Virus record (IMG/VR): IMGVR_UViG_3300035703_000211 | Span: 1 to 37,988 of that record | Direction: 5' to 3' (one strand) | Length of the DNA: 37,988 bases | Source: a virus | Shown here: piece after piece, positions 4,232 to 37,988 of the stretch | How the letters are laid out: each line of letters begins with the position of its first letter | Numbering within the stretch: position 1 is the stretch's first letter | Notes under the pieces: model-generated | Databases searched by the model: none | What the model saw: only the letters and a program-made list of their open reading frames with translations | What the model was told of the DNA's origin: nothing | Position numbers and translations under genes: made by a program

Positions 4232-4504
4232 TCAGGGGGCGGGCTTGATGGCGGCACGCTCCAGCGCCTCGACCCGTTCCCGCGCCCGCGCTAGGTCAGC
4301 CTCCAGCGCGGCGATGCGGGCGGCGGCGATGTCGGCGAGGAGGTATTGAACGCCAACGCCATCTTCCGGGCATGAACGGTCCCAATCGCCATATACCCAA
4401 CCCCACTCGTCAACCTGATCGTCAAGGCCGTCGTCAGGCTCAGGCCATGCCCATATCCGTTCCGGCGCGTCAGTCATGGCGGCTTTCCCCCGTTCCGAGG
4501 TCAT
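4232..4504 (-). CDS. Hypothetical protein with acidic Trp-rich domain and C-terminal coiled coil
   Basis: This is a 90-residue protein. Residues about 12-50 are Trp/Asp-rich (RIWAWPEPDDGLDDQVDEWG), a pattern seen in many small phage proteins of unknown function that begin 'MTDAPERIW'. Residues about 55-85 form a heptad coiled coil (IAALEADLARARERVEALE). The ATG at 4504 overlaps the stop of the HNH gene. A second ATG at 4477, beginning that common 'MTDAPERIW' motif, is an equally good start. Confidence 0.6.
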   Translation of the reverse strand: MTSERGKAAMTDAPERIWAWPEPDDGLDDQVDEWGWVYGDWDRSCPEDGVGVQYLLADIAAARIAALEADLARARERVEALERAAIKPAP

Positions 4505-5145
4505 CCGATAATCTTCCTGCGCTCTTGGAATTTTAGCGCCCCTGCGGCGCACATGCGATAGAACGCCTCGTCACCAAAATCTGACCGGGCGCAGTTGGCA
4601 ATACACGTCACGATCCGCACGTTACCCTTGATGTAGCCAAGCGTCAGGTCAACCCGGTCGATGCTCGGGCCGAACGGGTTGCGCCTGCTTTCAGTGTCGT
4701 GGTTGGGCGTGAAGGCAAGGCCCGTCATCGCGCATTTCCCGTTCTGCGCCACGAACAACTCCTGCATACTCTCTTGCGTCAGGTTGAAGGCGAGTTCACG
4801 CTCTGCGGCCCGTGACTTGGCCTTTCGCATCGCCACCCCGAGAGACGACGCAATCGCCTCTGCGTCGGCAACCTTCTTGGCCACCATGACGCCTTGGTTT
4901 CCGCCGATCATGTCACCGCACTGTGTCGCCGCGTCGATGTAGGCCGACAGAAAATCAGGGTGGTCATAGGGAAGGTTGGGCAGGGCAATCGAGCCAACGC
5001 CGCGCTTCCGATAGTAACAATACCGCTTCTTGTTCTGGTAAACGATGTGAACGTTGCGGGGCTTGCGATAAGGCCCCCATCCGTCATCCTTGTTTTTCAC
5101 CGTTCGGGGTTTGTCTTTCTTCCGTTCCGCTAGGTTTTCCACCAT
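4501..5145 (-). CDS. HNH endonuclease with an integrase-type N-terminal DNA-binding module
   Basis: This 214-residue protein has two parts. Residues about 33-75 (KKRYCYYRKRGVGSIALPN...PDFLSAYIDAATQ) match the N-terminal module of the neighbouring integrase in pattern: aromatic/basic, then R-K-x-G, then LP, then a short helix. Residues about 125-200 form an HNH-type nuclease core with C138-x-x-TG, SIDRVD (D163), GYxxGNVR and N184-C. It presumably nicks or cuts DNA. The gene could be a homing or mobile nuclease, or a lysogeny-associated recombination factor. The combination of modules suggests an origin by domain exchange with the integrase. It starts 104 bases upstream-facing from the integrase 3' end. 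Confidence 0.75.
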   Translation of the reverse strand: MVENLAERKKDKPRTVKNKDDGWGPYRKPRNVHIVYQNKKRYCYYRKRGVGSIALPNLPYDHPDFLSAYIDAATQCGDMIGGNQGVMVAKKVADAEAIASSLGVAMRKAKSRAAERELAFNLTQESMQELFVAQNGKCAMTGLAFTPNHDTESRRNPFGPSIDRVDLTLGYIKGNVRIVTCIANCARSDFGDEAFYRMCAAGALKFQERRKIIG

Positions 5146-5204
5146 TGCCCTCAGATAAGCCTATGTTCTGACGGTCCTCCCGGGATCGCCATTGCGTGCA
5201 CTTT

Positions 5205-5240
5205 ACACTTATTTTCCACGTTGTGGCAAGTGTTTTACAC
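5205..5240. other. Nested inverted repeat in AT-rich gap beside the integrase (attP candidate)
   Basis: The 104-base gap between HNH and integrase (5146-5249) is locally AT-rich. It contains ACACTT (5205-5210) pairing with AAGTGT (5228-5233) around an inner CCAC-GTT-GTGG (5216-5226), and a TTTACAC direct repeat (5202, 5234). Tyrosine recombinase core sites are short inverted repeats and attP often adjoins int, so this is a plausible attP or integrase site. It could also be a transcription signal. No bacterial junction is present to prove it. Confidence 0.35.
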
Positions 5241-5249
5241 CAACGTTTT

Positions 5250-6296
5250 TCACCGTTCCGCCTTCGTTCGCCCCATCACGGCGCGGCGGCGGTCGGCCTC
5301 TCGGGTGTATCGCTCAATCTCTTTCAGGGTCAGGTGTCCGGTCCAGCTTGCTATCTGGTGGACGGTCGCTCCTGCCTCGGCCAGCGCGGTTGCGCGGGCT
5401 TTTCGCAGCCCATGTGCGGACCGATCTAGGCCCGCGTCCCGGCACGCCTCCCAGATCATCGTCCCTAGCGCCTTGTGGCTGCGCTTGCGCCCCTTGGCCG
5501 ACAGGAACCAACCCGCCGTGAATGGCGCGATGGCTTCCAACATCATGGCCCGGTCGCCTTCCATCCCCACTGCATAGTCGGGCAGGTCGCATGTCCACGG
5601 GACATAGGCCATCGCCTTGGTCTTGATCTGGCGATAAGCCATGACGCCGCCCGTCACGTTGCCGGGTCCAATCTCGACGGCATCCCCGATTCGGCAGGCC
5701 GTCCAGAAAAGCAGTTCCATCGCGGCACGCGATGCACTGCCCATGGGGTGCTTCTGTCGAAACGCTGCCACATCGTCTGCAGACCACGCAGGATGCCCGT
5801 CAGACGCCTCTGTGCGGGGCAGGGATGCGGTTGCCGCGTGATCGACGGATAGCCGCCCACGGGCCATTGCAACGCGCGTGAGGAATCGCCACGCCTTGAT
5901 CCTGTGAAACGGAACAGGCGCGGCTGACAGGTCATCCTCGATCCATCGCGCTTTCATCCCCGAAAGGTCCAGATCGCCCCACGTTGTGGCGATGGCGTCC
6001 ATGTTGCGGCGCAGAAGTTCGCGGTATCCAGGCGAAAAGGACGCGAAGTCCTTCGATGACAGCGCGTCCTCACATGCGGCTTTGACGGTGTTCTTTGTGG
6101 CGCGACGGGCCGTCTCGGGCTTGCGTTCCTTTGCCGCTGCGTAGGCTTTCAGGAACTCGGCGCTATTGTGCGGGGCGTCTGGCAGTCTGACTAGGGGAAG
6201 GCCCTTCTTGCGGAAGTAGGTGTAGGGCTTGCCACGGCGCATGACGGTGAAAACACCGACTAGGACGACCGTATCTTTCTTGCCCGTTCTTCCCAT
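5250..6296 (-). CDS. int: Tyrosine recombinase / phage integrase
   Basis: This 348-residue integrase catalyses site-specific integration and excision of the prophage. The N-terminal module (residues 20-57: RRGKPYTYFRKKGLPLVRLP) is the arm-type segment common in alphaproteobacterial integrases. A SAM-like core-binding region covers about 65-165. The catalytic domain shows all expected residues: R202 (ACRIGD), K225/K227 (QIKTKA), H295-x-x-R298 (HGLRK), H321 (WTGHLT) and nucleophile Y330 (ERYT). The ATG at 6296 lies within the 3' end of the upstream gene. The gene is near the distal end of the leftward operon, which is under the repressor-controlled promoter. It looks intact and full length. Confidence 0.92.
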   Translation of the reverse strand: MGRTGKKDTVVLVGVFTVMRRGKPYTYFRKKGLPLVRLPDAPHNSAEFLKAYAAAKERKPETARRATKNTVKAACEDALSSKDFASFSPGYRELLRRNMDAIATTWGDLDLSGMKARWIEDDLSAAPVPFHRIKAWRFLTRVAMARGRLSVDHAATASLPRTEASDGHPAWSADDVAAFRQKHPMGSASRAAMELLFWTACRIGDAVEIGPGNVTGGVMAYRQIKTKAMAYVPWTCDLPDYAVGMEGDRAMMLEAIAPFTAGWFLSAKGRKRSHKALGTMIWEACRDAGLDRSAHGLRKARATALAEAGATVHQIASWTGHLTLKEIERYTREADRRRAVMGRTKAER

Positions 6297-18093: not shown

Positions 18094-18586
18094 CGTTGTG
18101 ACCTTGATGGACGAACTGCAAAGACTGCGGGCGCAGCTTGCATCGGTTCAAGACAAGTTGGCGGGGGCGAGGCTGGCGCGCCGCAACGTGCGGGACGCCA
18201 TCGCCCGTGACTGTCTGCGCATGAACTTTACGGACAAGAAACTGACCGACTGGCGTCCCATGGCGCCGGAAGAAGTCAGGCGCCTTGACGCCGTACATGA
18301 GGCAACCGCGCCGGTCCTGTCGGAATACTTGCCGCAGGAAACCGTCCTGAAGGATGCCGTCAGACACGCCGAAATCGACCTTGAACGCGCCAAGAAAGAA
18401 CGACGCAAACCGGGGGTTGAACCGGGGAAAACCGGGGATAATGCCGTTTCCCCGGTTCATGGAAGCCCTAAAGGGAACGGGGACCGGGGACGGTCTCCCC
18501 GGTTCCCCCCGCAAACCGGGGAAAACCGGGGATTCCCCGCCCTTGATTTAGGGCTTCCTGGACTTGGCCCGGAGTGGACAAGATGA
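18086..18586 (+). CDS. Coiled-coil protein overlying the iteron-like repeats
   Basis: The 166-residue frame starts inside the primase end. Residues about 5-45 (LMDELQRLRAQLASVQDKLA) and about 80-110 are coiled-coil helices. After residue 108 the sequence is Gly/Pro/Arg-rich and encodes the repeat DNA. The tail's composition is imposed by the repeats, and the two 20-base copies fall in different reading frames, so the DNA rather than the peptide is conserved there. The coiled-coil half may help replication. Confidence in the helical part is higher than in the tail. Confidence 0.6.
   Translation: MADVVTLMDELQRLRAQLASVQDKLAGARLARRNVRDAIARDCLRMNFTDKKLTDWRPMAPEEVRRLDAVHEATAPVLSEYLPQETVLKDAVRHAEIDLERAKKERRKPGVEPGKTGDNAVSPVHGSPKGNGDRGRSPRFPPQTGENRGFPALDLGLPGLGPEWTR
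18410..18558. repeat. Iteron-like repeat cluster and inverted repeat, candidate replication origin
   Basis: Eight CCGGGG/CCCCGG cores occur between 18410 and 18531 (six on plus, at 18410, 18422, 18432, 18484, 18516, 18526; two reversed at 18450, 18497). A 20-base direct repeat, AACCGGGGAAAACCGGGGAT, lies at 18420-18439 and 18514-18533, 94 bases apart, in different reading frames. A 12-base inverted repeat (GGAAGCCCTAAA at 18461-18472, its complement at 18547-18558) frames the second half. The neighbouring prim-pol makes origin function plausible. Alternatively the repeats bind a regulator or packaging factor. Confidence 0.55.
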
Positions 18587-31756: not shown

Positions 31757-32442
31757 TGATCCGCGCGCCGAACGCCCTTGCCCTGCCGACGATGCAAGGG
31801 GCAACGCCTGTCGTCTTCAACGAGCGGAGCATGAACTACCTCGCCCCGCTTGACCCGCGCTTGCGGGAACTGATGTTGGAAACGGAGCGGATCGCGTCTG
31901 AGCGCGGGATTGACTTTGAAATCAGCGAAGGGATGCGGGACGCGGAGCGGCAGGCCCAACTAGTCGCGCAAGGCGCATCGCAGACCATGAACAGCCGCCA
32001 CTTGCATGGGCAAGCGGCAGACATCCACATCCTGAACCCGGATGGGTCGGTCAACTGGAACTTTGAAGATTACCGCCCGATTGCTGACATTGCCAAGGGT
32101 GTCGCGGCTGACATGGGCGTCACCGATTTTGTCTGGGGCGGCGATTGGGAAAGCCTGCGCGATGGCGTTCACTTTCAAGTCGGCGGGCCGTCCAGCGGAG
32201 CGCCCCCGGCAGGCCGTGGCGGCAATGTGCAACCGGCGGGCGGCAACACGCAGCCAACGACGTGGGCAGGTGGCCCGCCATTTGACCCAAACAACCCGCC
32301 GCCGAACATGCCCAACGCCCTCGCCGCGCAACAGCAGGCGCTTGCCATGGCCCAACTTCGCCAGCGTGAGGGCTACCGGAACGCGCTGATGGAAAGCCTG
32401 CAAGCGCCGATCTACGCCAACCAGCTTCAAGGGGTCCGATAA
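31756..32442 (+). CDS. Virion-associated M15 peptidase (ejection-linked wall hydrolase)
   Basis: This 228-residue protein has an M15 core at about 40-145: SRHLHGQAADI (H82, D89) and DGVHF (H139), with WGGDW between. The fold closely parallels the endolysin at 1023 (shared RQ-x2-LVAQGAS-x-TMNSRH). The C-terminal 85 residues are Pro/Gln-rich with a helix, unlike the endolysin. Being embedded between ejection proteins it probably travels in the capsid and locally opens peptidoglycan during entry. TAATG junction couples it to the gp7-like gene. Confidence 0.82.
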   Translation: MIRAPNALALPTMQGATPVVFNERSMNYLAPLDPRLRELMLETERIASERGIDFEISEGMRDAERQAQLVAQGASQTMNSRHLHGQAADIHILNPDGSVNWNFEDYRPIADIAKGVAADMGVTDFVWGGDWESLRDGVHFQVGGPSSGAPPAGRGGNVQPAGGNTQPTTWAGGPPFDPNNPPPNMPNALAAQQQALAMAQLRQREGYRNALMESLQAPIYANQLQGVR

Positions 32443-37646: not shown

Positions 37647-37988
37647 AGGAACTGGACAACCTGGAACGGGTCGGCGTGACGGGCATCCTCGCCATTCTGG
37701 GCGTCGTGATGTTCCTGTTTCTAGTGCCGTCTTCAACATGGATGACGGTCAACCGAATGGACGTTCGGGACGCGGCGTCATGCAAGGCGCTGACAGTAGA
37801 CTATGACAGGACGTTCCGCCGCGCGTTCGACGGGGCCTACCGGATCGAAGTGGACAACGTGACGGGCGGCAAGGTCGAACTGGTCTACGCAACGCAATGG
37901 ACGCCCGTTCGCTTCAACCCCGAACGCACGTTGCCCGACCCCGTGTCGCTTGAATGGTTCGTCGGCCCCGGCGTTTGCGACTTCATCA
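37643..37988 (+). CDS. Membrane-anchored protein, N-terminal part (right-end, variant allele), continues into window start
   Basis: The GTG at 37643 has GGAGGG seven bases upstream. The first 34 residues include a membrane helix (GVTGILAILGVVMFLFLVP). Codons from 37745 are identical to those from base 2 through base 123, after which this copy differs in 10 of the next 41 residues, mostly conservatively, and then runs off the window. It is the allele of the protein at 2-355. The right terminus is therefore a variant of the left, not a second gene in tandem with visible spacing. Confidence 0.75.
   Translation, partial: MKELDNLERVGVTGILAILGVVMFLFLVPSSTWMTVNRMDVRDAASCKALTVDYDRTFRRAFDGAYRIEVDNVTGGKVELVYATQWTPVRFNPERTLPDPVSLEWFVGPGVCDFI
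37744..37988. repeat. Terminal repeat: 123 bases identical to the window start, then a diverged copy
   Basis: Bases 1-123 equal 37744-37866 exactly. From 124/37867 on they differ at many third codon positions but still encode a very similar protein. The unit length is 37743 bases. The pattern fits a circular or terminally redundant genome assembled through a spot of strain variation. Confidence 0.85.

Follow-up and report, generated by a model that had tools for sequence, protein, structure and literature searches.

Homing nucleases must keep finding conserved target DNA. The nearest described kind to the phage protein analysed here is that of the AP2-associated HNH homing endonucleases (IPA-HNH; PMC10448857), in which a small HNH nuclease is likewise combined with a separate small DNA-binding domain, the proteins being free-standing in phages and situated at genetic-exchange boundaries. 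However, the AP2 domain of the IPA-HNH proteins is C-terminal (PMC10448857), whereas the additional domain of our protein, which we call its head, is N-terminal, homologous to the heads of integrases and matched to the neighbouring integrase. The restriction enzyme PacI (3ldy) is its top fold match as well as a sequence profile match, with D-R ... N at equal spacing, but it is a stand-alone, zinc-bound enzyme without such a head, while only one core Cys is conserved in the present family. The Endo VII-type F-CphI (PMC6083498) is another small, free-standing protein of a phage whose nuclease part, at the C-terminus, belongs to the same broad class of folds, but it has retained the DHDH motif, its target is psbA, and no integrase head has been described for it; the same paper mentions Endo VII-motif genes beside integrases in prophages. 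Finally, the nearest named integrase (47%), that of Rhodobacter phage RcapNL, shares with our locus the head family, similar arm-like repeats and an identical tRNA-Arg core, yet RcapNL has no HNH gene between the integrase and the next genes. Among profiles, PHROG 3322 matches the core best, as it does every headed relative tested, and in some of these relatives the match extends into the head; this family is annotated just as endonuclease, the head type and the integrase pairing being absent from the annotation. In a literature search, with most subscription papers outside its scope, we met no HNH protein described as having the head of an integrase.

The DNA studied is the IMG/VR virus record IMGVR_UViG_3300035703_000211, positions 1-37,988, a stretch that we refer to as the window. 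Its two ends (1-244 and 37744-37987) share 123 identical bases and then diverge inside a 244-base, 85% similar overlap, as in two assembled variants; this overlap indicates a nearly complete, circular genome. Elsewhere in the window, 1274-1373 and 31926-32025 are 73% similar and lie inside peptidase-like ORFs, which are possibly two lysis-type paralogues, and 18361-18540 holds a short array of AACCGGGG-type repeats.

The HNH-core protein and its integrase-type head

The gene (4501-5145, minus strand) starts with ATG behind a GAGGG-like ribosome site and encodes 214 amino acids, its assignment drawing on the ORF call, PHROGs, the head profile and AlphaFold. It adjoins the gene for a tyrosine integrase of 348 amino acids (5250-6296, minus strand), the stop codon of which is overlapped by one arm-like repeat. 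An earlier note on this DNA had seen a common N-terminal pattern in the two proteins and proposed aligning HNH residues 33-75 with integrase residues 20-57. When this was done, the homology proved to be real, with a register of 32-74 in the HNH protein, close to the one proposed. In particular, a gapless alignment of residues 32-72 of the HNH protein with residues 15-55 of the integrase has a score of 83, as compared with a mean of 30.4 (sd 4.5) and a maximum of 66 in 2,000 shuffles, and the HNH protein used as a query against the window recovers the integrase head unaided (E=6e-6). What is more, against a profile built from the heads of other integrases alone, the HNH protein scores 45.7 bits (E=2.4e-16, taken as a single sequence), and the highest score among 20,000 shuffles was 14.3. 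Since some integrases in this profile had been fetched with the HNH head in the query, the profile was rebuilt without such sequences, and the resulting independent profile of 11 integrases still gives 38.1 bits, the best shuffle reaching 10.9. On the strength of these sequence comparisons, the homology of HNH residues 32-74 to integrase N-terminal heads can be regarded as confirmed.

In the predicted structure, the HNH head (residues 32-75; 4921-5052, minus strand) consists of three strands (32-37, 40-47 and 51-55) and a helix (63-75), with pLDDT of about 90. The three-stranded sheet and C-terminal helix of an arm-binding domain are predicted in both models, the counterpart in the integrase being residues 14-57 (6126-6257, minus strand); a Foldseek search with the HNH head alone gave no match below E=1, solved arm-binding domains included. 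The HNH head is 35-37% identical to that of the adjacent integrase and up to 60% identical, over 35 amino acids, to the heads of other integrases, which rules out a recent duplication of the adjacent integrase's head. The two proteins may bind the same DNA, but the HNH head resembles the heads of other integrases more than that of its neighbour, so that the two specificities need not be identical. Among the loci fetched first, all further copies of this head family are parts of integrases.

The nuclease core (residues ~106-201; 4543-4830, minus strand) is predicted to adopt a PacI-like beta-beta-alpha fold, with strands at 160-164 and 176-180, a helix at 181-213 and pLDDT mostly above 90. The best PDB matches in a fold search are PacI (probability 1.00), T4 endonuclease VII and Gme HNH, with modest E-values of 0.03-0.5, and the family profile finds PacI by sequence as well (E=0.0014), placing D163-R164 and N184 opposite D92-R93 and N113 of PacI. 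The active-site stretch D163-R164 ... Y171 ... N175 ... N184 (4594-4659, minus strand) is invariant or nearly so among 96 relatives: in the 96 unique cores, D163 and Y171 occur in all and both Asn in 94, and D, R, Y, N and N are retained in every headed copy. In other words, the metal-binding Asp and Asn of HNH (beta-beta-alpha-metal) nucleases are present (D163 and N184); their catalytic His, the general base, is absent, with Arg (R164) instead in 95 of the 96 unique cores. PacI also has Arg at the His position, and a Tyr is thought to be its base (PMC4081073). We did not accept that the replacement of His by Arg makes for a dead nuclease, as the PacI profile match retains D-R...N. The label of HNH nuclease given in the earlier note is thus to be kept in modified form. 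Namely, PHROGs returns an endonuclease (phrog_3322, 1.1e-23) and the fold is HNH-like, but Arg stands where the catalytic His is usual, and Pfam gave no match to the protein, AP2 included.

Head types and their pairing with integrases

Our first searches had suggested that an HNH protein with an integrase head was unique to the window phage. When IMG/VR was searched with a more inclusive alignment of the core, 80 loci were obtained, and two more searches added further ones; many headed relatives were among them. Many of the cores immediately follow a tyrosine integrase gene, and the start of the one often overlaps the stop of the other, an overlap that points to joint expression and perhaps to a part in integration. 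On this one phage HNH core, at least five mutually unrelated types of head are found beside integrases, among them a DYGS type (L062, L064), an LPxxVYxKHGAYY type (L075, L098, L105, L145 and others), an Arm-DNA-bind_4-like type (L082; Pfam E=0.026), an SGRGIQIR type (L095, which shares more than half of 52 amino acids with its own integrase) and a GVHIV type (L136).

Do the heads follow the integrases beside which they stand? We took all 20 integrase-adjacent pairs with an N-terminal extension, the presence of a head not being a criterion, and compared each extension with its own integrase. The summed score was 1288, while permuted pairings gave 643 +/- 73 with a maximum of 1029, none of 100,000 reaching the observed value; in 12 of the 20 pairs, the head clearly matches its own integrase (z>5). 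Among six representatives of different head type, scores are 115-196 between cores, 18-58 between heads and 65-142 between a head and its own integrase, against a background of 26, the one weak likeness of heads across types being that of the window and L062. Inheritance of a single head family by descent is ruled out, as the head types are mutually unlike and the cores alike, and several independent captures are the simplest reading of unlike heads on alike cores. The suggestion in the earlier note that a nuclease had borrowed the N-terminal module of an integrase has accordingly gained in breadth, with HNH cores carrying the head type of the neighbouring integrase in several unrelated head families. 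L118 and L119 are exceptions to the match, and so are cores without a recognisable integrase head, such as L091, L102, L113, L166 and L172. At L118 (2246-2812), the HNH protein has an LPxxVY-type head and the adjoining integrase, on the opposite strand, has an unmatched one. In phi2LM21 (L006) and Rivra (L008), integrases whose heads are related have an HNH gene two genes upstream, and in Escherichia phage KBNP1711 (L059, 1396-1848) a relative of the core is flanked on either side by a gene with the annotation DNA polymerase.

The attachment region and the patchy presence of the gene

The attachment region that the earlier note supposed to lie here can be placed at 5093-5253, partly within the HNH gene. 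Its attP core, TGGCGATCCCGGGAGGA (5175-5191, minus strand), is identical in 17 of 17 bp to the 3' end of tRNA-Arg(UCU) beside an integrated RcapNL-type integrase (L014), and this identity places attP in the gap between integrase and HNH gene (5146-5249). Around the core, and all on the minus strand, arm-like repeats are found at the integrase stop (GTGAAAAA, 5246-5253), at 5233-5240 (GTGTAAAA) and at 5212-5219 (GTGGAAAA), with a degenerate fourth at 5201-5208, as well as within HNH codons 2-4 (GTGGAAAA, 5135-5142) and codons 16-18 (GTGAAAAA, 5093-5100), this last copy being part of a 23-bp direct repeat with 5245-5267. Of seven copies of the motif TTTTHCAC (GTGDAAAA when read on the integrase strand) in the 38-kb window, five stand on the same strand between 5093 and 5253, and two of these five fall within the first 18 HNH codons. 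A 9-mer array this strong arose in 0 of 400 local shuffles and was met at one other place in a scan of the window, a tandem repeat, figures which are to be taken as a guide, the motif having been noticed post hoc. Independent support comes from RcapNL (L004) and L015, the related integrases of which are in the attP state and have [CG]TGTAAAA repeats at nearly equal offsets about their own cores. At further headed loci, arm-like repeats are clear in L176 and L064 (0 of 40 shuffles) and not clear in L184/L145, L149, L062, L095, L081 and L082. Going by sequence, we regard the GTGDAAAA repeats of the window as arm-like, that is, as candidate arm-type sites. The exact attP core had no match in the 58 alphaproteobacterial genomes searched. 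In the window, the HNH gene lies beyond the core, so that upon integration it would end up at the opposite prophage end from the integrase gene; in other lineages, it lies between the integrase gene and the core.

Among 80 relatives of one integrase type, the HNH core is present in ten, and near-identical relatives allow occupied and empty alleles to be compared at one site (L222/L224, L230/L233 and L245/L242), these being loci of relatives; an empty allele of the window locus itself was not found. In the first series, L222, L230 and L231, which have the gene, are 91-94% identical to L224 and L233, which do not, up to the integrase end and about 85% identical beyond it, and in the L222/L224 and L230/L233 comparisons 633 bp with the HNH gene stand in place of 81 bp. 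The replaced 81 bp contain two TATTAGACAG repeats 20 bp apart, with a third and an inverted copy further on. In the occupied alleles, this tandem pair beside the integrase is lost, but an altered pair, TATTGGACAG and AAATAGACAG, is found in the 3' coding end of the HNH gene, 20 bp apart in L230 and L231; the first TATTAGACAG site has become TATTGGACAR in both occupied lineages, a change that may merely reflect coding. In the second series, L245, with the gene, is 96-97% identical on both sides to L242 and others without it, the insertion site being what we take to be the start of mutS. Near-identical relatives with and without the gene mark it as a patchy insertion in the arm-site region. Between the HNH genes of L245 and L232 there are 37 synonymous changes and one non-synonymous change (dN/dS 0.006), which shows very strong purifying selection on this pair. 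A decayed copy, with the head start and the core in different frames, is seen in L197/L198 (3380-3800), and L239, L226, L237 and L247 hold unrelated cargo between integrase and attachment core, at the place of the HNH gene in L245.

Possible roles of the protein

The reading that we favour, and to which we would give about an even chance, is that the window protein is a free-standing homing-type endonuclease whose targeting domain is the arm-site-binding module of its neighbour's integrase type. The HNH core would have captured the DNA reader of an integrase repeatedly; the head would bind the arm-type sites of related phages that have an integrase of its kind; nearby, in att regions without the gene, the PacI-like core would make its cut, and repair would then copy the HNH gene plus flanking integrase and att DNA, with HNH-bearing genomes presumably protecting themselves. 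We prefer a homing type because relatives of the core occupy homing-like places, as in KBNP1711, and because near-identical occupied and empty alleles exist, and the decayed copy in L197 is a further point in its favour, as are the homology of the head and its pairing with the neighbouring integrase, the arm-like repeats about the tRNA-Arg core, the active-site residues kept in headed copies and shared with PacI, and the dN/dS of the L245/L232 pair. That said, arm-like repeats persist in HNH-bearing genomes, leaving their protection from self-cutting unexplained, and the Arg in place of the usual catalytic His, the overlap of integrase stop and HNH start in many copies, the position of the gene beyond the core in the window and between integrase and core elsewhere, the failure to find an empty allele of the window locus, and the unrelated cargo in the same space in relatives all count against it. 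As regards the att-specialised homing nuclease of the earlier note, then, the patchy insertion into the arm-site region fits, while cleavage and homing are steps that we infer.

One can also imagine, with a low probability in our estimate, an att-directed weapon, a nuclease that attacks phages of the same integrase type, whether co-infecting or resident, by cutting their attP or att junctions, and reserves the site for its owner. Such a weapon would agree with a head matched to its own integrase type, with the strong purifying selection and with the patchy insertion among near-identical prophages; however, the owner's attP has the same repeats, so that immunity would be needed, no candidate immunity feature was seen, and relatives of the core are found in homing-like positions at a distance from att. 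A useful role in the phage is suggested by the very low dN/dS and by the overlap of HNH start and integrase stop, and we consider it similarly unlikely that this role is the regulation of integration or excision, the protein competing with or assisting the integrase at arm sites and its core binding DNA or processing junctions instead of cutting. The arm-like repeats overlapping the HNH coding ends and the Arg in place of the catalytic His would suit a regulator, as would the many overlapping copies and the dN/dS of 0.006, but presence in just 10 of 80 related integrase loci makes the core dispensable, and the metal-site D and N are kept together with an Arg with which PacI, the nearest solved relative, does cut DNA. 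Finally, the gene could be an ordinary HNH moron at a cargo hotspot between integrase and att, its head stemming from a chance fusion with 5' integrase sequence and having no targeting role. Other cargo genes do take the same interval in relatives and headless integrase-adjacent cores exist, but the heads differ between cores and agree with the cores' own integrases, a match that no permutation equalled, and the heads are old and diverged, yet intact, which leaves us to regard this origin as very improbable.

Returning to the homing-type reading, we would extend it, at somewhat less than an even chance, to a widespread class of att-homing nucleases, in which one core repeatedly takes the reader of the adjoining integrase and follows and spreads modules of integrase, attP and HNH gene among temperate phages. 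The matched pairs are predicted pairs of arm site and reader, and as such they are directly testable. Repeated uptake of a neighbouring gene's DNA-reading domain, which is seen here several times, would be a simple route to new specificity. If these nucleases cut att regions, they would drive the exchange of integration modules among temperate phages and would help to account for the mosaic way in which integrases and attachment sites are paired.
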